A stretch of DNA of 64,000 bases from an uncultured Bacteroidota bacterium. GTDB taxonomy: Bacteria > Bacteroidota > Bacteroidia > 2-12-FULL-35-15. Positions 21,698 through 34,839 of this stretch are shown one piece after another (the stretch's first letter is position 1; the number at the start of each line of letters is the position of its first letter). Both the position numbers and the translations under genes were made by a program. The DNA lies in NCBI GenBank assembly GCA_903926385.1, contig CAIYIS010000081.1, positions 1-64,000 on the forward strand, given 5' to 3'. Below the pieces are notes generated by a model. That model had not been told where the DNA came from. It saw nothing but the letters and a program-made list of their open reading frames with translations, and searched no databases.

Positions 21698-21730
21698 TTA
21701 CTCCACCATTATCTTCTTGTTCACTATTCC
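21698..21730 (-). repeat. 33-bp direct repeat, left copy (orphan tail of a type IX cargo gene)
   Basis: These 33 bases are identical to 22344-22376, where they form the last ten codons and the stop (GIVNKKIMVE) of the type IX cargo gene. Here no gene precedes them on the minus strand. Both copies have ACAGTAAAA a few bases away on the lower-coordinate side. The two copies bracket the toxin-antitoxin pair. Confidence 0.85.
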
Positions 21731-22343: not shown

Positions 22344-22376
22344 TTACTCCACCATTATCTTCTTGTTCACTATTCC
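22344..22376 (-). repeat. 33-bp direct repeat, right copy
   Basis: This is the matching copy of 21698-21730 and encodes the end of the type IX sorting domain. Distance between copies is 646 bases, with the toxin-antitoxin pair between them. Confidence 0.85.
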
Positions 22377-24920: not shown

Positions 24921-24928
24921 TACATTTG
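24921..24928 (+). promoter_or_regulatory. -7 box of the first small-protein/TonB module
   Basis: TACATTTG fits TAnnTTTG and ends five bases before the ATG at 24934. The paralogous gene at 28066 has TACTTTTG at the same five-base distance. Transcripts would be leaderless or nearly so. Confidence 0.6.
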
Positions 24929-24933
24929 CGCCA

Positions 24934-25473
24934 ATGAAATTTACTCGTCAGGCCACCGCTTTATTTCTTTTGTCTATATTCCTGTTTAACACCATGGGAT
25001 ATTTTGTGGCATTTAAAGTGGCCCAATTGGACATAAAAACCGAGATGATGGCGGAAATGAAAGACGACATTACTACGGATGACGATACCGAAATTACCAT
25101 AAATGAAGATGATGCCCTATCGATAGAATGGTTGGAAGACAAAAAGGAAATGCGTTATAAAAACAATCGCTACGATGTGGTAAAAACCGAAACGCATGGA
25201 AAATTGATTACGTATCACTGTATAAAAGATACAAGAGAAGATGCCTTGTTTACCAATCTGGATAAACATATCGGCTCGCATGTAGTATCCACTCAACCAC
25301 AAAAAAATCATTCGTCCAATACTCTAACAAACGATGTGGTGAAGCTGTTTTTTCAGCATTCGTATACCTATCGCCTAATAACTTCAGAACAAAACATTAC
25401 TTTTTTACCTATCAAAGAAGATTTTATTTCGGCTGCCATCGGCACCAACACGCCTCCACCTGAGTTGGGTTAA
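24934..25473 (+). CDS. membrane-anchored small protein upstream of a TonB receptor, paralogue 1
   Basis: A 179-residue protein with one N-terminal helix (about 9-30) and an acidic extracytoplasmic part. I know no function for it. Its paralogue at 28066-28605 shares the helix (LSIFLFNTMGYF), a middle block KEMRY-x-N-x2-YD-x-VK, an ITYxC motif and an almost identical end, EDFISAAIGTN-x-PPPELG. Each copy is directly followed by a TonB-dependent receptor gene, which suggests that it assists or regulates the receptor. The gene has an acidic run of Asp and Glu at 44-65. No lipobox is present. Confidence 0.75.
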   Translation: MKFTRQATALFLLSIFLFNTMGYFVAFKVAQLDIKTEMMAEMKDDITTDDDTEITINEDDALSIEWLEDKKEMRYKNNRYDVVKTETHGKLITYHCIKDTREDALFTNLDKHIGSHVVSTQPQKNHSSNTLTNDVVKLFFQHSYTYRLITSEQNITFLPIKEDFISAAIGTNTPPPELG

Positions 25474-25480
25474 ATAACCT

Positions 25481-25672
25481 CTCCCCTTAATCCCCTCTCC
25501 GCAAGAGAGGGGGCGATAGGTGAGCATCAAAGGCCTCACCCCTTTATCCCCTCTCCTTGAAAAAAGGAGAGGGGGTAGCAGGTGAGTTTCTTAAAAAATT
25601 ATTTCCTTAACCTAGTATTTCACGTTCTTCACCCCTCCCCTTATTTCAAGGGGAGGGGAAGGGGGTGAGGTC
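25481..25672. repeat. three palindromic GC-rich units in the spacer of module 1
   Basis: Three hairpin units stand in a row: CCCCTCTC/GAGAGGGG (25492-25512), CCCCTCTCCTT/AAGGAGAGGGG (25548-25575) and CCCCTCCCCTT/AAGGGGAGGGG (25632-25657). Each is bordered by CACC or CTCACC on the left and GGTGAG on the right. They resemble a widespread class of short palindromic intergenic repeats. The two right-hand units recur in the spacer at 28626-28757. Confidence 0.75.
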
Positions 25673-25685
25673 TCAAAAAAACATT

Positions 25686-27932
25686 ATGAAAAAATATATA
25701 TTATTTACTATTGCCATAGCGGGCAGCATTATCAATGCTTCCGCACAGGAAAAAACAACAGATACCACCCAATCGAAACACATTACCCTAAGCGAAGTGG
25801 TAATTTCGGTTAACAAAGTGGAAGAACAAAAAAACAAAGTAGCACAGCAAGTACAAGTGCTTTCGGCTAGCGAAATAGCCAATACACAAGCACAATCGAC
25901 AGCCGAAGTGATTTCGAACACCGGCAATGTGCATGTACAGAAAAGTCAGCTGGGTGGCGGAAGTCCTAATATCAGAGGATTTGAAGGCAACCGTGTGGTG
26001 CTGATGATAGACGGAGTGCGCATGAACAACCTTATTTACAGAGGCGGTCACATGCAAGATTTAATTAAAACCGACAACAATATTCTGGACAGAGTGGAAG
26101 TGCTGTTTGGCCCATCTTCTACCGTTTACGGAAGTGATGCATTAGGAGGAACCATTTTGCTTTACACCAAAAAACCTCAATTTGCTACGGATGATAAATT
26201 GAATGTAAAAGTAAACGCCATGTATCGTTATGGCTCGGTAGACAATGAGTCGGCCACACACGTAGATTTTAATATCGGAGGTAAAAAATTCGCTTCGTTA
26301 ACATCGGTAAGCTATTCTAAGTTTGGCGATTTAAAAGGAGGAGCCAATCAAAATCCTTTTTACAGCAACTCTTACGGAGAGCGCCCATATTATGCCGAAC
26401 GCTTTAACAACAAAGACTCGTTGGTAAAAAATGATAACCGTTATTTGCAAAAACAAACTGCTTTTTCGCAATACGACATCCTTCAGAAATTTGCATTTAA
26501 ACAAGGCGAACACATCACTCACGGTTTGAATTTGCAATATTCAAACTCCAGCAATGTGCCCCGCTACGACCGCCTTACACTTCCCGGAGGTTCCGGAACA
26601 GGGCTTAAAAGCGCTGAGTGGTATTACGGGCCTCAGTCGCGTTTGTTAGCTGCCTACGACTTTAATCTAAAAAATCCGGAAGGCAAATTTCAGGGAATTC
26701 ATTTCGGTGTTAACTATCAGGCATTGGAAGAAAGCCGCCACAATCGTAACTTTGGCGACCGCTGGTTGAAAAACAGAATTGAAAACGTAAGTGTAATTGG
26801 CGCCAATCTCGACTTTCAGAAAACAATTAAAAAACACGATATCCGCTTTGGTGCCGATGTTCAGTTGAACAATCTTAAATCAACAGCCAATAAAAAAGAT
26901 ATCCTAGCCGATACCACCGCCAAATTTGCTACTCGTTTTCCTGACGGGGTAAACAAAATGAACAACATGGCTGTGTATATTTCTCATACCTGGAAAATAA
27001 ATGACGAACTAACCTTAACCGATGGTGTTCGTTTGGGATATTCTACTATTCACAGCACACTTGCCGACACATTGAATCCTCCTGATCCTTATCCGGCCAA
27101 TCCTCCTTACACCGTTATCGACCAAAAAACTCCTGATTATTCAGGAAGCATAGGGATTATCAATTCGCCAAGCAACGATGTTAAACTTTCTTTCCTTATT
27201 TCAACCGGTTTCCGTGTGCCCAATGTGGATGATGTAACCAAAATATTCGACCCTGCACCGGGCACTGTAAGAGTACCGAATGTAAACCTTAAACCGGAAC
27301 GTACCGTAAACTACGAACTGGGCATTTCAAAAATGTTTGGCGAAAAATCGCGTTGGGAAAACTCCGTGTTTTATACCGATTTGTATGATGCCATAGTGGT
27401 GGATAAATCTACCTACAACGGCAAAGATTCCATTATGTATGATGGTATGCTGAGCAAGGTGTATTCGTGCCAGAACAAAGGTCGTGCGTTTATTTACGGA
27501 GCTTCTACCAATTTCAAATCGCAACTAAGCGAGCATGTAATGATGTCGTTTGCCATGAACTATACCTATGGCCGTATTAAAACCGACAGTGTAGATACCC
27601 CAATGGATCACATTCCTCCATTCACCACTCGTGTGTTCTTTACTTACACCAACAAAAAATTCAGCTCTGATTTCTTTATCAATTACAATGGATGGAAACA
27701 CCTGAAAGATTATGCTGTGGATGCAGGAGCAGAAGACAATAGCGAGTATGCCACAGCCGATGGAATGCCGGCATGGTTTACTGCCAATCTGCACATGGCG
27801 TATAAAGTGCATAAATTAATTACACTTCAGGCCGGAATAGATAATGTGTTCGATACACAGTACCGCACATTTGCAAGCGGTATCAACGCTCCCGGTCGCA
27901 ACATATTTGTAGCATTGCGTTTTCATTATTAG
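25686..27932 (+). CDS. TonB-dependent outer-membrane receptor, hemoglobin/heme-receptor type
   Basis: A 748-residue receptor with a signal peptide (MKKYILF to about ASAQ), a TonB box region (ITLSEVVISV), a plug domain (about 45-165) with NIRGFEGNRVVLMIDGVRMN, and a 22-strand barrel ending in Phe-His-Tyr. The plug sequence and the YRGGHMQDL segment match the TonB hemoglobin/transferrin/lactoferrin receptor group. Heme or a related ligand is therefore the best guess, without proof. ATG at 25686 is chosen because the signal peptide begins there. It lies 212 bases after the small-protein gene, across a hairpin-rich spacer. Confidence 0.85.
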   Translation: MKKYILFTIAIAGSIINASAQEKTTDTTQSKHITLSEVVISVNKVEEQKNKVAQQVQVLSASEIANTQAQSTAEVISNTGNVHVQKSQLGGGSPNIRGFEGNRVVLMIDGVRMNNLIYRGGHMQDLIKTDNNILDRVEVLFGPSSTVYGSDALGGTILLYTKKPQFATDDKLNVKVNAMYRYGSVDNESATHVDFNIGGKKFASLTSVSYSKFGDLKGGANQNPFYSNSYGERPYYAERFNNKDSLVKNDNRYLQKQTAFSQYDILQKFAFKQGEHITHGLNLQYSNSSNVPRYDRLTLPGGSGTGLKSAEWYYGPQSRLLAAYDFNLKNPEGKFQGIHFGVNYQALEESRHNRNFGDRWLKNRIENVSVIGANLDFQKTIKKHDIRFGADVQLNNLKSTANKKDILADTTAKFATRFPDGVNKMNNMAVYISHTWKINDELTLTDGVRLGYSTIHSTLADTLNPPDPYPANPPYTVIDQKTPDYSGSIGIINSPSNDVKLSFLISTGFRVPNVDDVTKIFDPAPGTVRVPNVNLKPERTVNYELGISKMFGEKSRWENSVFYTDLYDAIVVDKSTYNGKDSIMYDGMLSKVYSCQNKGRAFIYGASTNFKSQLSEHVMMSFAMNYTYGRIKTDSVDTPMDHIPPFTTRVFFTYTNKKFSSDFFINYNGWKHLKDYAVDAGAEDNSEYATADGMPAWFTANLHMAYKVHKLITLQAGIDNVFDTQYRTFASGINAPGRNIFVALRFHY

Positions 27933-27959
27933 TTGAATGAATTGTGAATTCGTAAGTAG

Positions 27960-27992
27960 AAAGGCAAACAGAGTATCGTTTGCCTTTTTTTT
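27960..27992 (+). terminator. intrinsic terminator
   Basis: AAAGGCAAAC (27960-27969) pairs perfectly with GTTTGCCTTT (27978-27987) and a T run follows. It ends the first receptor gene and separates the two modules into separate transcripts. Confidence 0.85.
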
Positions 27993-28052
27993 ATCTTGAA
28001 ATCTAATAATTACTCCCTGATTTATCGCGGTTTGCAATTTCAATAATTTGCA

Positions 28053-28060
28053 TACTTTTG
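28053..28060 (+). promoter_or_regulatory. -7 box of the second small-protein/TonB module
   Basis: TACTTTTG fits TAnnTTTG and ends five bases before GTG 28066, exactly as in module 1. This supports GTG as the true start and rules out the upstream TTG at 28048, which would lie before the transcription start. Confidence 0.6.
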
Positions 28061-28065
28061 TGCCC

Positions 28066-28605
28066 GTGAAAATAACTCAAAAGATAACGGCCTTTTTTCT
28101 TCTGTCCATATTCCTGTTCAACACCATGGGGTATTTCATTGCGTTTAAAGTAGCGCAATATCAGATAAAATCAGCCGTATTTTCAGATATCAGAGAAGGA
28201 ATAAACTTAGAAAAAGCTACCCTAATAACCCTCAAAAAAGCCGAAGTGAACTCAATAGTCTGGCTCGAAAAAGGGAAAGAAATGCGATACAATAATCAGT
28301 TGTATGACATTGTAAAATATACCGAAACCAAAGAAACCATCACTTATTACTGTTTAAGCGATAAGCTGGAACAACATCTGTTTTCTCACCTCAACGAACA
28401 TATTGATACACATGTAACACTTGCCAATCCCGGCAAAAACAAATCGTCAACCAATATTAAAAACAGTGTGGTGAAACTTTTTTTCCCTCATTGCTTTCAG
28501 TATAATTTAAAAACATCAGAAGTAAACATTACGTTTTCTGCTATCAAAGAAGATTTTATTTCCGCTGCTATTGGCACCAACTCGCCTCCTCCTGAGTTGG
28601 GTTAA
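28066..28605 (+). CDS. membrane-anchored small protein upstream of a TonB receptor, paralogue 2
   Basis: A 179-residue protein when read from GTG 28066, the same length as its paralogue at 24934-25473. The start was chosen by aligning M-K-I-T-x-x-x-T-A with the paralogue and by the -7 box. It has one N-terminal helix, then the shared blocks KEMRYNNQLYDIVK, ITYYCLSD, LFSHLNEHI and the end EDFISAAIGTNSPPPELG. The central domain is only about half identical, while the last 20 residues are almost unchanged, which points to a binding tail under strong constraint. Function unknown; it probably acts with the receptor downstream. Confidence 0.75.
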   Translation: MKITQKITAFFLLSIFLFNTMGYFIAFKVAQYQIKSAVFSDIREGINLEKATLITLKKAEVNSIVWLEKGKEMRYNNQLYDIVKYTETKETITYYCLSDKLEQHLFSHLNEHIDTHVTLANPGKNKSSTNIKNSVVKLFFPHCFQYNLKTSEVNITFSAIKEDFISAAIGTNSPPPELG

Positions 28606-28625
28606 ATAACCTCATATCTGAAACA

Positions 28626-28757
28626 CCTCACCCCTTTATCCCCTCTCCTTGAAAAAAGGAGAGGGGGGAGCAGGTGAGTTTCTTAAAAAATTATTTCCCT
28701 AACCTAGTATTTCACGTTCTGTCACCCCTCTCCTTTGGAGAGGGGTCGGGGGTGAGG
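28626..28757. repeat. two palindromic GC-rich units in the spacer of module 2
   Basis: Hairpins CCCCTCTCCTT/AAGGAGAGGGG (28640-28667) and CCCCTCTCC/GGAGAGGGG (28724-28745) stand in the same places as the last two units of module 1. The second stem differs from its partner in module 1 by a C to T change matched by G to A on the other arm. The sequence between and after the hairpins is almost identical in both modules up to the receptor start codon. Confidence 0.75.
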
Positions 28758-28772
28758 TCTCAAAAAAACATT

Positions 28773-31223
28773 ATGAAAAAATTTACATTATTAACTTTAT
28801 TAGCGGCATGTGTATCCACTGCATTTGCCCAAAACACCCTAACGGGAAAAATAAAAGCTGCCACCACCGACAGCACAGCTTTACAAGGCGTGTCGGTTTA
28901 TATTCCTGATTTAAAAATAGGAGCTGTAACCAAAGAAGACGGAACATTTACCATCAACAATGTGCCTAACGGAACGTTTTTAATTCAGGCAAGTTCTATT
29001 GGCTATGCCTCGATGGTAAAAGAAATAAATGTAAAAGAATCGGCCACTGCCAATTTTGTTTTGCATGCTTCCTCCATCGAAATAAAAGAAGTAATCGTTA
29101 CCGGTGTGTCGAGCGCTACAGAAGCCGACAGCAACCCCATTAATGTGGATGTGGTAAACAAAAACGATTTACTCGAAAACAGCGCCACCAACATTATTGA
29201 CGCTATTACCATTTCGCCTTCGGTAAATGCAATGACTCACGGGCCCAACATTTCTAAACCATTCATTCGTGGCTTGGGCTACAATCGTGTGGTTACCGTA
29301 AATGACGGAGTTCGTCAGGAAGGACAACAATGGTTTGATGAGTTTGGTGAAGAGATTGACGAGTATTCTATCGACAAAGTAGAAATTCTGAAAGGGCCCG
29401 GTTCCCTTAGCTATGGCTCCGATGCTATGGCAGGAATTATCAATATGCTTTCGGCACCTACATTGCCCGAAGGTGCTATCAAAGGAAATGTGTTGGCCAA
29501 TTACCAAAGCAATAACGGCCTTTGGGGCGAATCGTTTAACCTGGCCGGTAACTTGAAAGGATTTGTGTGGGATTTGCGTTACAGCAATAAAATGGCACAT
29601 TGCTATTACAACAAGTACGATAAATATGTTGCCAATTCGGGTTATTCCGAAAGCAATATCAGAGCCATGCTTGGCATTAACCGTAAATGGGGCTATTCTC
29701 ATTTAATTCTTTCTTCGTTCGATATGCAAACCGGAATTATAGAAGGAGCAAGAGATTCGGCAACTGGTAAATTTGTTGGTGCGTATCTTAAGCCCGATGG
29801 TACCGACAGTACAGGAATTGTTACCAACGAAGAAATGCTAAAATACAATAACTTTCCGGTTATTCATCAGCATATAAAACATACCAAAGCTGTTTTGGAC
29901 AACAGTTTTATAGTTGGAAACGGAAGACTGAATTTGTTAGTAGGTATGCAGATTAACGACCGTCAGGAAGCCAACGATATTTTGTACAATGGTTACAACA
30001 ATAAATTTTTGTTGAACACCATCAATTACGATTTACGGTATGTAATGAAAGAAAAAAATCACTTCGAATTATCGGTAGGTGTAAACGGAATGAAGCAAAA
30101 ATCGGATGACAAAGGAGTGGTATTTGTTATTCCCGAATACGAACTGATGGATATCGGAGGATTTGTGATTGCCAAAAAATCGTTTAAGAAATTATCCATA
30201 AGCGGAGGCTTACGTTACGATATGCGTTCAATGAAAGCAAAAGAAATGTGGGTGAACGATTCAAGCGGTGTTCGTTTGTCGGGCAATGTAGATACATTCT
30301 CGCATCAGCAGTTTGTTCCGCAAAGTGCCACTTTCTCCGGCTTATCCGGAAGCCTTGGTATGACGTATGATTTCAATGGAAATGTATATGGAAAATTAAA
30401 CTTTTCGAGAGGATACCGCGCACCAAGTATCCCTGAAATGGGCTCGAACGGAATACATGATGGAACACCGTTTTATGAAATTGGCGACCCTAATTTGAAA
30501 TCAGAAAGCAGTTTGCAAGTGGATGGAACCTTAGGAATCAATACCGAAGATTATACCCTCGAAACTGATTTGTTCTACAACAAAATTTCGAATTATATAT
30601 TTGCCGAAAAATTAGCCTCTGTATTTGGTGGCGATTCTATTCGTACCGATGTTGCTGCCGTCAATATGGCAGGGCCTGCATTTCATTACATACAAGGCGA
30701 TGCATTGCTAACAGGAGGAGAAGCTATTTTTGATTTACACCCGCATGTTCTAAAAGGTTTTCACTGGAACAACTCATTTGGAGGGGTAGACGCTATTCAG
30801 CTTCACCAACCCGATTCTACTAAATATTTGCCATATTCTCCTCCTTACAAATACCGTTCGGAAATAAAATTGGTAATGGAAAAATCGGGAACGTTGATGA
30901 AAAGTGCTTACATCAAATTTGGAGTAGATTATTATTTTGAACAAGATAATTTCTATAAAAAATTCGGTAACGAAACGATGACACCCGAATACACATTGTT
31001 CAACTTTGGAGCCGGTACTGATTTCTGCAGCAAGAAAGGTAACACCGTTTGTACTTTCCTTGTTTATGTTAGCAATTTAACAGACGTTGCCTATCAAAGC
31101 AGCATGAGCCGACTTAAATACGCTGACCCTAACAATGCAACCGGCAGAACAGGGGTTTACAATATGGGAAGAAATGTAAGTTTTAAATTAATCATCCCTA
31201 TTGATATTAAAAAAAGTAAGTAA
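28773..31223 (+). CDS. TonB-dependent receptor with N-terminal carboxypeptidase-like domain
   Basis: An 816-residue outer-membrane receptor. It has a signal peptide (about 1-20, ending AFAQ), a CarboxypepD_reg-like domain (about 22-105), a TonB box region (SIEIKEVIVTG), a plug (about 115-225, with PFIRGLGYNRVVTVNDGVRQ) and a large barrel. ATG 28773 is chosen because the signal peptide starts there. The sequence is not close to the receptor of module 1, so the two modules carry different receptors behind almost the same leader. The plug is of the type seen in receptors for heme and metal chelates, but the ligand is open. Confidence 0.85.
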   Translation: MKKFTLLTLLAACVSTAFAQNTLTGKIKAATTDSTALQGVSVYIPDLKIGAVTKEDGTFTINNVPNGTFLIQASSIGYASMVKEINVKESATANFVLHASSIEIKEVIVTGVSSATEADSNPINVDVVNKNDLLENSATNIIDAITISPSVNAMTHGPNISKPFIRGLGYNRVVTVNDGVRQEGQQWFDEFGEEIDEYSIDKVEILKGPGSLSYGSDAMAGIINMLSAPTLPEGAIKGNVLANYQSNNGLWGESFNLAGNLKGFVWDLRYSNKMAHCYYNKYDKYVANSGYSESNIRAMLGINRKWGYSHLILSSFDMQTGIIEGARDSATGKFVGAYLKPDGTDSTGIVTNEEMLKYNNFPVIHQHIKHTKAVLDNSFIVGNGRLNLLVGMQINDRQEANDILYNGYNNKFLLNTINYDLRYVMKEKNHFELSVGVNGMKQKSDDKGVVFVIPEYELMDIGGFVIAKKSFKKLSISGGLRYDMRSMKAKEMWVNDSSGVRLSGNVDTFSHQQFVPQSATFSGLSGSLGMTYDFNGNVYGKLNFSRGYRAPSIPEMGSNGIHDGTPFYEIGDPNLKSESSLQVDGTLGINTEDYTLETDLFYNKISNYIFAEKLASVFGGDSIRTDVAAVNMAGPAFHYIQGDALLTGGEAIFDLHPHVLKGFHWNNSFGGVDAIQLHQPDSTKYLPYSPPYKYRSEIKLVMEKSGTLMKSAYIKFGVDYYFEQDNFYKKFGNETMTPEYTLFNFGAGTDFCSKKGNTVCTFLVYVSNLTDVAYQSSMSRLKYADPNNATGRTGVYNMGRNVSFKLIIPIDIKKSK

Positions 31224-31449: not shown

Positions 31450-34400
31450 ATGAAAAGAAAATGCTACAAAATATTTTTATTGACTGTTATGTTCTGTGCA
31501 GCTCAATACGGGAAGGTGAACGCACAAACGGGTATGCCTTGCGGAACTGATCAACAGTGGTGGAAACAAGTTGCTGAACATCCTGAGTTACTTCAAATGA
31601 AGATGACCTATGATGCTGATTTGGTACAAAAAATAAAAACCATGCATTTGAGCTCCCATCTTAATAAATCAGGAGAACCGGTTTTGGTTATCCCTGTTGT
31701 TGTCCATGTTCTCCATGTTTTTGGATCAGAAAACATTTCGGACAGACAAATATATGACATGATAAAATTGGTGAACAGGGATTGGGCAATGCTTAATCCA
31801 GACATTACAAACGTTTGTGCAAATACTCCTTTTGACACTTTGGCGGCTCCAATGAACTTAGAATTTCGCCTTGCTCAGCTAGATCCAAACGGAAGATGTA
31901 CTAATGGAATTGATCGTATTTATACTCATAAAACATTTGAAGCAGATGATGGATCGAAATTAAATCAATGGCCTAGAGATAAATACCTAAACATCTGGAC
32001 AGTTAACACACTAGGGCCACCAACATCAACGGCAGCTGCGTACGCTCTTTACCCTACAGCGACTCTTTTTTATCCTCAAGGAGATGGTGTAATTTCGACA
32101 TCAAGCTATGTTGGATATAACGGAACCAGTACTGCTCTTAATTCTAGAACCATCACACACGAAATCGGACACTGTTTTGATTTGGAACATGTTTGGGGAA
32201 ACACCAATAATCCTTGGGTAGCTTGTGGAGATGACGGAGTAGATGATACCCCAAGAACAAGAGGACATTATATGAGATGTAATGACTCTGCATATTGTAC
32301 AACAAGTTGGGCAAAAAAAATAGTTTACAACTTCAATGGATTGCACTTACCTCAAGGAACAACAGACCCTTCGGTTGGTTCTTCTAATACGCCAACTTTG
32401 TCTGGACCTTTCTCTGCACATGGAGCAGGAACCAACCCTTCTGACCAAGGACGTTTTTCTTTTAACAATTGGGGAATTGGTGCTACAAATGGTGTTGTTA
32501 ACTATTCTTCGTTAACAGGTGCGTTAGATTCATCAAAATACTACGAGGTGACTATAGCTACAGATGCAAGTCATTCCATGACGATCAACGGTTTTGATTT
32601 TGATGTTAATCGTTCTGTAACTGGAATAAGAACCTTTGCAGTTCGTTCAAGCATCAACGGGTTTGCAAGTAATATTGGAACCGCCTCACTTAGTCCTTTT
32701 GACACAACGAAAATTGTTGTAAAACCGAATAATGTATTTTTCTATAAAAAAGATACTACAGTAAATGTAAGCGGCAGCCACATTACTTTAGGCACTGGTT
32801 ACAGTATGGGTTTTTCTTCATCAATTACCTTCCGTTTCTATGGTTGGAATGCTGAAGATGCCTTGGGAACTTTTGGTATTGATAATGTTAATTTTTATAT
32901 ATCAACCCCTACGGTAGATACAATAAATTACACATTTGACAATATGTTCCCTCCTACCGTTGGCTCAAATTTTGACGTAACTCCTGTTCAGGTGGATACC
33001 GCAGTTACTGTTGGAACTTTTTCAGCTAACAATGTAGGATATGGGGTTGGTTCATTGGAGTCATTGCGTTTTTCTTATGACAACTGGGGATTGGGAGGAG
33101 TAGGCGCTTCACACGATACAACTTACTCAAACATGACAGGTGCTTGGAATCCCTCAAAATTTTATGAAGTAACATTAGGCCCGCAGTATGCAAATTCTAT
33201 GACATTGAACAGTCTTACTTTTAATGTAAAGCGGAATTCAACAGGAATTAGGTCCTTTGCAGTGCGGTCAAGTCAAGATGGATATGCCACCAATCTTCCG
33301 GCAACAATTAGCCCTGCTAATACAAATTTAAGAATAATCGGGGGTGCTAATGAGTTTTTCTATTTAAAGGATACTACTTTGGATTTGGTTGGAGCAAAAA
33401 TAACATTGGGAGGAACAAATTATATTAACAGACTTACACCTGTAACTTTCCGCTTTTATGCATGGAACGCAGAAGACTCAACCGGCACCTTTAGTATTGA
33501 CAATGTTAATTTCGCTGATTATGCAGGAATAATCGAGAACTATCAAAACTATATGGATTATTCATATTGCGGTCCAAATGGCCAGATAATGTTTACAAGA
33601 GGACAGAAAGATCGTGCAAGAGCTGCAGCAACTAGTGCCATGGCTTACAGAAATAATTTATATATTAATTCTAACTTACATTTTACTGGTGTTGATACCA
33701 CTTATCATTGTATCCCTAAGCCAGATTTTTACTCTGACAAAAAAGAAATTTGTGCAGGAGGTTCAATTACTTTCCGAACCAATATCACTTGTATCTCCGA
33801 CTCCACATCATATACCAAAACATGGAGATTTCCGGGAGCCAATACAACTGGAGTTGGACCAACAACAGTTAATGCGGCTAATTCAGCCACTCAAACAAAT
33901 TCGCAAACAGTTACCTATTCCAATCCCGGTGATTATCCTGTGACGTTGATTGTTTCTAACTCAGTAGGTACTGATTCTTTGGTAAAAACTTCTTATATTC
34001 ACGTTAGTCCAGGCTGGCCTCAATACAACGGTACAGTTACAGAAACGTTTGAAAACGGGTCGTATTGGAATTGGGTTATCAATAATTATGATAATAATGC
34101 TCATGGATGGTCTCTCTATAATTCTGGAGGATACAGCGGTAATCATTGCATGGCAATGGGTGGGTACGGAAACTACCACAAAGATTTGGATGATTTTATT
34201 ACACCTGGTTTTAACTTGTTTGGTCTGACAAATGGTGTGTTCACGTTCCGTTGTGCTGCAGCTTCTCACGCTTTAGCATCAATCGACTTAAATGATGAAT
34301 TGAAAGTATATTCTTCTACTGATTGTGGCGCAACTTGGGTATTAAGAAAATCGTTAAGTGGAGCCGCTCTTTGTAACAACGGATATTATGCAGGTGGATT

Positions 34401-34839
34401 TGCACCTGCTTCACAAAGTCAATGGGCTTTGGTATCTTTTAACATAGCTAGCAATTTGGCTAAAGGAAATGTTCGCTTTAAATTTGAATATACCACAGGT
34501 TCTGCAAGTAACAACGTCTTTATTGATGACATTAATATCAACGGAACAGTTGGTATGATTGAAAACTCTATTGACGATGCTAATGTAAGTTTGTTTCCTA
34601 ATCCCTCAAGCGAATCGACAACCATTTTCTATCACTTAAATTCAAAAGGAAATGTAAAAATCGAATTATTTGATGTGGTAGGTAAAAAAGTGGTTGAAAT
34701 AAACAACAACAACCAAGCAGATGGAGATTACTCAACTATTATTTCTAAACAAGATTATAACCTTACTAACGGAATTTACTTTGTAAAATTCTCGATAGAT
34801 GGTAAAATGGTTACCAAAAAATTAATTTTCACGAATTAG
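31450..34839 (+). CDS. type IX-secreted M43 (cytophagalysin-like) metalloprotease with interrupted catalytic domain
   Basis: An 1129-residue zinc protease. A signal peptide (about 1-27, ending VNAQ) precedes an M43-type catalytic domain with H237-E-I-G-H241-x5-H247 as zinc ligands and E238 as catalytic base. The Met-turn NYMDYSYC comes only at about 700. The 400 residues between hold two tandem related domains (about 292-488 and 492-684), each with an FxNWG motif, a VxRSxxGIRxFAVRSS motif and a FRFYxWNAED motif near its end. Then come a PKD domain (about 760-850), a jelly-roll domain (about 858-1040) and a type IX sorting domain (about 1050-1129; LFPNPSS to KKLIFTN). It is likely exported and involved in protein breakdown. 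Confidence 0.88.
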   Translation: MKRKCYKIFLLTVMFCAAQYGKVNAQTGMPCGTDQQWWKQVAEHPELLQMKMTYDADLVQKIKTMHLSSHLNKSGEPVLVIPVVVHVLHVFGSENISDRQIYDMIKLVNRDWAMLNPDITNVCANTPFDTLAAPMNLEFRLAQLDPNGRCTNGIDRIYTHKTFEADDGSKLNQWPRDKYLNIWTVNTLGPPTSTAAAYALYPTATLFYPQGDGVISTSSYVGYNGTSTALNSRTITHEIGHCFDLEHVWGNTNNPWVACGDDGVDDTPRTRGHYMRCNDSAYCTTSWAKKIVYNFNGLHLPQGTTDPSVGSSNTPTLSGPFSAHGAGTNPSDQGRFSFNNWGIGATNGVVNYSSLTGALDSSKYYEVTIATDASHSMTINGFDFDVNRSVTGIRTFAVRSSINGFASNIGTASLSPFDTTKIVVKPNNVFFYKKDTTVNVSGSHITLGTGYSMGFSSSITFRFYGWNAEDALGTFGIDNVNFYISTPTVDTINYTFDNMFPPTVGSNFDVTPVQVDTAVTVGTFSANNVGYGVGSLESLRFSYDNWGLGGVGASHDTTYSNMTGAWNPSKFYEVTLGPQYANSMTLNSLTFNVKRNSTGIRSFAVRSSQDGYATNLPATISPANTNLRIIGGANEFFYLKDTTLDLVGAKITLGGTNYINRLTPVTFRFYAWNAEDSTGTFSIDNVNFADYAGIIENYQNYMDYSYCGPNGQIMFTRGQKDRARAAATSAMAYRNNLYINSNLHFTGVDTTYHCIPKPDFYSDKKEICAGGSITFRTNITCISDSTSYTKTWRFPGANTTGVGPTTVNAANSATQTNSQTVTYSNPGDYPVTLIVSNSVGTDSLVKTSYIHVSPGWPQYNGTVTETFENGSYWNWVINNYDNNAHGWSLYNSGGYSGNHCMAMGGYGNYHKDLDDFITPGFNLFGLTNGVFTFRCAAASHALASIDLNDELKVYSSTDCGATWVLRKSLSGAALCNNGYYAGGFAPASQSQWALVSFNIASNLAKGNVRFKFEYTTGSASNNVFIDDININGTVGMIENSIDDANVSLFPNPSSESTTIFYHLNSKGNVKIELFDVVGKKVVEINNNNQADGDYSTIISKQDYNLTNGIYFVKFSIDGKMVTKKLIFTN

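Follow-up and report, generated by a model that had tools for sequence, protein, structure and literature searches.

The 64,000-nt stretch of DNA analysed here (hereafter the window: positions 1 to 64,000 of the forward strand of contig CAIYIS010000081.1, i.e. a part of contig 81 of a 4.27 Mb, 85-contig draft genome of an uncultured Bacteroidota bacterium) contains two consecutive modules, in each of which a gene for a small, putatively membrane-anchored protein precedes a gene for a TonB-dependent receptor (TBDR) on the same strand. The small proteins, both of 179 residues, are encoded on the + strand by open reading frames (ORFs) at 24934..25473 (copy 1, ATG start) and 28066..28605 (copy 2, GTG start), and both end with three prolines followed by ELG and the stop codon; the PPP codons (25453..25461 and 28585..28593, + strand) are the stall sites proposed below. 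TBDR 1 (748 aa; 25686..27932, +) and TBDR 2 (816 aa; 28773..31223, +) both exhibit the Plug and barrel domains according to Pfam, while a CarboxypepD_reg domain is present in TBDR 2 only. The nearest NCBIfam model for both is TIGR01786 (hemoglobin/transferrin/lactoferrin-type), with scores below the cut-off; a PepSY_TM_like_2 match of TBDR 1 (E-value 0.32) was dismissed as chance. The second module is followed by a gene for an M43 (pappalysin-like) metalloprotease with the sorting tail of the type IX secretion system (T9SS) (31450..34839, +; Pfam M43 and Por_Secre_tail). Since the whole genome possesses only 17 genes with a Plug domain, the occurrence of two such pairs is not due to chance. 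The initial annotation, made from the sequence of the window, described two paralogous small proteins, nearly equal in the helix and in the last 20 residues but different in the center, each preceding a receptor of a different type, and this description holds: the two copies share 56% identity, diverging in the center while being near-equal in the N-terminal helix and over the ~20 C-terminal residues, and the receptors fall into different similarity clusters (types 0 and 3).

Comparison of the small proteins with Pfam and NCBIfam yielded no matching model, the weak matches being judged as chance, and literature searches on the HYC_CC_PP family (see below) and on a family of TBDR-associated upstream open reading frames (uORFs) in Bacteroidota revealed no paper covering these proteins. 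The family profile identified matches with E-value ≤ 0.01 in 33 of the 36 genomes of the bacterium's own taxonomic family, a few of which are weak matches to other proteins. In a sample of 392 genomes (174 genera) of the phylum, a 34-sequence profile found members in 72 genomes and 50 genera. The more sensitive A7 profile, limited to the N-terminal ~112 residues, found them in 172 of 396 Bacteroidia genomes (89 of 199 genera). By sequence comparison this is an unnamed family, spread across Bacteroidota.

The most conspicuous feature of the family is its C-terminus. All 116 full-length members exhibit two consecutive prolines (PP) within the last 12 residues, and 86 of them exhibit three (PPP); the prolines mostly stand between S or T on the N-terminal side and K, E or R on the C-terminal side, and a median of three residues separates them from the stop codon. 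Among 845 other ORFs from the same loci, used as a control, only 7 contain PPP in the last 30 residues, and all 7 are of the HYC_CC_PP type. Because the first profile had included the tail, the test was repeated with a tail-less profile on 60 fresh regions, where 57/57 full-length matches end in PP or PPP; in the background, 2/198 ORFs have PP and none has PPP.

The AlphaFold2 model of copy 1 (14 sequences, mean pLDDT (predicted local distance difference test) score 61.6) predicts a helix (aa 3–43), a small β-domain (aa 52–98), a second helix (aa 100–117) and a disordered tail. The first helix covers a hydrophobic segment (aa 7–30) that is kept in the family, which is consistent with an export signal or transmembrane anchor. 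Fold recognition against the PDB gave no meaningful match (best E-value 0.27). The conserved positions comprise a single cysteine, C96 (84%), together with E72, D81, D99 and E102. Residues 126–165, in the predicted disordered tail, show 16% pairwise identity among members, yet the length of this region hardly varies: the last proline lies 80 ± 2.5 residues from C96 (5–95%: 75–84), a spread as tight as across the folded part, and 3 ± 1.6 residues separate it from the stop codon. In 17 members detected by the N-terminal part alone the C96-to-proline distance is 79 ± 3.7 residues. The PPP motif lies about 58 residues from the end of the last helix, roughly what a chain requires to pass through both the ribosome tunnel and the translocon. 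A length that is fixed while the sequence is not would be expected of a ruler that acts in the nascent chain, and not of a free tether. This bears on an alternative that we regard as doubtful, namely that the small protein, once mature, persists in the periplasm as a stable partner, anchored in the inner membrane, of the receptor or of the TonB machinery, with the 60-residue tail crossing the periplasm and the S/T-PPP-E/K/R end docking to its target. The combination of a conserved folded domain with a predicted disordered tail is compatible with such a partner, and a docking peptide, too, could carry such an invariant terminal motif, but a free tether with 16% identity should vary in length, and this one does not.

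The initial annotation also called the small protein a dedicated partner or sensor of the receptor, and proposed to score how often its homologs lie directly upstream of TBDR genes. In the first set (117 members) 89 directly precede a TBDR, 6 have a TBDR within three ORFs, and 2 are located at contig ends; one more downstream ORF was recognized as a TBDR by Pfam, which makes 90 of 115 evaluable members. In the independent set retrieved by the tail-less profile the fraction is 51 of 55. The homologs are thus found mostly beside TBDRs, across the class Bacteroidia, and the median gap between the small gene and the downstream gene is 83 nt. Such strong adjacency fits a physical partner as well. 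It is harder to reconcile with the quite improbable view that the small protein is exported to fulfill a job unrelated to the receptor (e.g. in envelope stress or metal trafficking), sharing with it only a regulon, while its PPP end serves as a structural or proteolysis signal: that view draws on the several kinds of downstream genes and on the lack of any matched known fold, but 51/55 is tighter than co-regulation requires, and the view offers no explanation for an invariant PP that keeps a fixed distance to the stop codon.

In members that do not precede a TBDR, the next gene encodes an M43 or trypsin-like protease with the T9SS tail, a PAP2/vanadium-haloperoxidase-like protein, or a CMD-family protein. 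The M43 protease replaces the receptor directly after the small gene in some genomes (e.g. at locus L085). Genes that follow the receptors encode M43 proteases (11 of 51 scanned), FecCD and periplasmic binding proteins, or PepSY_TM proteins. These neighbors suggest a role in taking up iron, heme or some other metal complex. A T9SS-sorted M43 metalloprotease adjoins the module across the group (31450–34839 in the window; loci L074, L075, L076, L085, L370 and L373, the calls for the last two having been made by eye from the first residues). A distant branch of the family (L222, L226, L228, L229, L243, L244, L246, L247, L250, L251) heads operons without a TBDR; these encode a ~310-aa protein that looks by eye like an outer-membrane β-barrel (one was scanned, with no Pfam match) and a ~520-aa PAP2/haloperoxidase-like lipoprotein.

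The receptor types do not strictly follow the phylogeny of the small proteins. The two copies from the window are sisters in the small-protein tree (support 96 in the Shimodaira-Hasegawa-like approximate likelihood ratio test, SH-aLRT) despite receptors of types 0 and 3; L075 (type 3) likewise pairs with L076 (type 0), with support of 95, and over the whole tree the receptor type clusters only loosely. A dedicated physical partner should track the receptor type, so that these swaps between sister small proteins speak against it, as do members with the same PP end that precede secreted proteases, PAP2/haloperoxidase-like or CMD genes instead of receptors. Of the two roles suggested in the initial annotation, the sensor is therefore retained, probably acting in cis and on the grounds of the PP/PPP motif and the fixed tail, while the physical partner is the weaker rival and is not needed to explain the data.

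The segments between the small genes and the receptor genes require a separate explanation. The stretches before the two receptor start codons are 91% identical over 152/147 nt, and 96% identical over the first 100 nt, in agreement with the near-identical ~150-base spacers reported initially. The idea that they are specific to the modules was rejected, and that of a leader moved as a cassette is not supported: the elements that fill spacer 1 (25534..25685) and spacer 2 (28626..28772) belong to a dispersed family of palindromic repeats with 73 BLAST places in this genome, and their inverted-repeat pattern has 41 exact strand-wise matches in the genome versus none for the reversed-pattern control. 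Spacer 1 alone carries an extra copy of the repeat unit (25478..25524; identified by BLAST as C81:25478-25524 and by the alignment). Near-full-length copies were also found between genes for superoxide dismutase (SOD)-like and aldehyde-dehydrogenase (ALDH)-like proteins, between hemE-like and hemL-like genes, and before a fabD-like gene (all these names were read from the sequences). The repeat core CCCCTCTCCTTGAAAAAAGGAGAGGGG (25478–25685 and 28626–28772 in the window; also L006, L007, L008, L009 and L019) often ends right before the start codons of unrelated genes. A functional leader common to both modules, i.e. an RNA switch or attenuator that defines them, would account for the strong hairpins and the 96% identity over 100 nt, but the occurrence of the element at about 70 places, also between unrelated genes and with no tie to receptors, largely refutes it, and we consider it extremely improbable. 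The spacer repeats are a genome repeat and lie outside the receptor system. As regards their age, 19 of the 38 fourfold-degenerate sites differ between the two small genes, so the genes are less alike than the spacers, which must be younger than the gene duplication or have been homogenized. No support was obtained for recent gene conversion between the small genes at the 3' ends of their coding sequences: with fourfold differences at 3/9 sites there versus 16/29 elsewhere, selection at the protein level is enough to explain the similarity of these ends. Elsewhere in the window, an ORF for a Y1_Tnp protein (a transposase of the tyrosine type associated with repetitive extragenic palindromes; 256–789) lies inside a 47-nt inverted repeat (157–203/828–874, 89% complementary); this flanking palindrome (157–874) differs from the CCCCTCTCC repeat of the spacers, and the genome contains one further, weak Y1_Tnp match (C1:151-348).

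Several characterized systems resemble the modules described here. CruR from Bordetella pertussis (DUF2946, PF11162) is a 145-aa exported uORF product encoded before the TonB-dependent transporter gene BfrG/CrtA, with a RAPP motif three residues from the C-terminus; copper at its CXXC motif relieves the arrest, whereupon Rho terminates transcription, and the spacing between CXXC and RAPP matters (PMC9426467). The arrest was later demonstrated by toeprinting (PMC12992588). The small proteins share with CruR the N-terminal export signal, the proline motif three residues from the end, the conserved spacing between a residue of the domain and that motif, and the intergenic gap followed by a TBDR gene. 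They differ in length (mostly 170–190 aa), in having PPP or PP instead of RAPP, in the absence of the CXXC copper motif, and in the combination of an anchored helix with a β-domain, in Bacteroidota. Membership in DUF2946 was rejected, as there is no Pfam match at E-value ≤ 1 and no detectable similarity, and the motif is PPP/PP rather than RAPP. CutF from Rhodobacter capsulatus combines a proline-rich end with a stem-loop before cutO; CutF-like proteins are common in Bacteroidota, have TonB-like genes among their usual neighbors, and exhibit Cys/His metal motifs in the clusters of a survey that kept only proteins shorter than 150 aa (PMC9973294). The likeness to our family extends to the export signal, the proline-rich end (at most 15 residues from the C-terminus) and the downstream gene on the same strand, but with its greater length and its one conserved Cys our family would have been filtered out of that survey. 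SecM, VemP, ApdA and uA_LPPP are exported nascent chains in which a C-terminal arrest motif controls the next gene; peptides of the SecM type precede secA, secDF or yidC and monitor protein export, and uA_LPPP uses LPPP within its last 15 residues (PMC10987492). By analogy the small proteins would also be exported chains with a C-terminal motif ahead of the gene they control, although the genes downstream of them encode receptors and secreted enzymes. A FecR-type anti-sigma factor was considered and rejected: only a few residues precede the helix, there is no cytoplasmic sigma-binding domain, and no FecR match was found in Pfam.

The HYC_CC_PP family (NCBIfam NF047658), found in 74 of the 119 Bacteroidia genomes sampled, shares with the small proteins the N-terminal helix, the C-terminal PP and the occurrence in Bacteroidota. 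PP was found near the C-terminus in 27 of 28 proteins read, typically 12–17 residues before the end, farther from the terminus than in our family, and the HYC and CC cysteine motifs are peculiar to HYC_CC_PP. Membership in HYC_CC_PP was rejected, as the proteins from the window do not match NF047658 at E-value ≤ 1 and their close relatives gave no match either, and an hhalign comparison of the two families aligned 25 columns, covering the N-terminal helix only, which is insufficient to show common descent. Many HYC_CC_PP genes (L108-L113, L269-L298; in the genome under study G000:C63:30365-30550) precede genes for CusA-like transporters of the resistance-nodulation-division (RND) type, HMA (copper-chaperone-like) proteins or TBDRs, the names of these neighbors having been read in part from the sequences. 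Judging from sequence features, HYC_CC_PP proteins look like a copper branch of the same strategy, i.e. candidate copper-sensing uORFs of Bacteroidota.

The invariant C-terminal PP/PPP, the variable tail of fixed length, the swaps of receptor type and the presence of downstream genes other than receptors together argue for a regulatory nascent chain. We consider it fairly probable, by analogy with the systems described above, that the small genes are exported regulatory uORFs, nascent-chain sensors that stall the ribosome at PPP and control the next gene in cis. From the same comparison we infer the following sequence of events, not only the ligand and the RNA step but also the stalling itself and the direction in which control would act. 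The N-terminal helix would thread the growing chain into the inner membrane, placing the small β-domain in the periplasm; the ribosome would reach the PP/PPP motif some 60 residues farther on and stall there, with the disordered ~60-residue tail spanning the ribosome tunnel and the translocon and the β-domain newly emerged. Folding of this domain or binding of a signal during synthesis, the signal being probably tied to whatever nutrient the next operon deals with, could then decide how long the ribosome waits at PPP, and the stalled ribosome could alter the folding of the mRNA or the termination of transcription, turning the TBDR on or off in cis. The RNA step was modeled by masking a ribosome footprint at PPP, upon which the region of the receptor start became more unpaired than with shuffled upstream sequence (0.055 vs 0.013, p = 0.003); the effect also exceeded that in other gene pairs (0.058 vs 0.018, p = 0.018). 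This predicted unmasking is only suggestive.

Several observations weigh against the nascent-chain sensor. The unmasking effect is small, and its p-values are optimistic, as the sequences are related and not phylogenetically independent. The gaps between the genes fold no differently from control gaps (mean z-scores -2.1 vs -2.5). PPP stalls are normally relieved by elongation factor P (EF-P), so that the stall would need reinforcement from the upstream residues of the tail or from the folded domain, and to our knowledge EF-P-resistant arrest has been shown for RAPP and RGPP only. The conserved positions include no Cys/His metal-binding motif of the CruR/CutF type (CXXC, His), and the middle domain is conserved well enough for a working protein of its own. 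Finally, over half of the loci have a further ORF on the same strand ≤ 150 nt upstream of the small gene, which is therefore not always clearly the first in its transcript.

On balance, the broader proposal that more than 40% of the sampled Bacteroidia genomes encode unrecognized membrane-anchored, PPP-ended sensors, which control TBDRs and some secreted enzymes in cis by means of a folded periplasmic domain, a fixed ~60-residue ruler and a stall at PPP, in response to a signal other than copper, appears to us evenly poised between true and false. In Bacteroidota, TonB receptors serve as the main gates for nutrients. If the proposal is true, control by translation arrest, known from protein export and copper, would extend to nutrient uptake in general, through a single unnamed family that heads receptor genes in 172 of the 396 Bacteroidia genomes. 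The nascent-chain sensor makes testable predictions, which concern the three proline codons and the length of the disordered tail.

Two further observations were made in the window. Eight copies of a 63-nt in-frame repeat (1120–1792) lie at the start of an ORF at 1113–2441. In addition, an exact duplication of 33 nt (21698–21730 and 22344–22376) encodes the end of a T9SS-type tail; one of its copies, a possible gene remnant, is not part of any long ORF.

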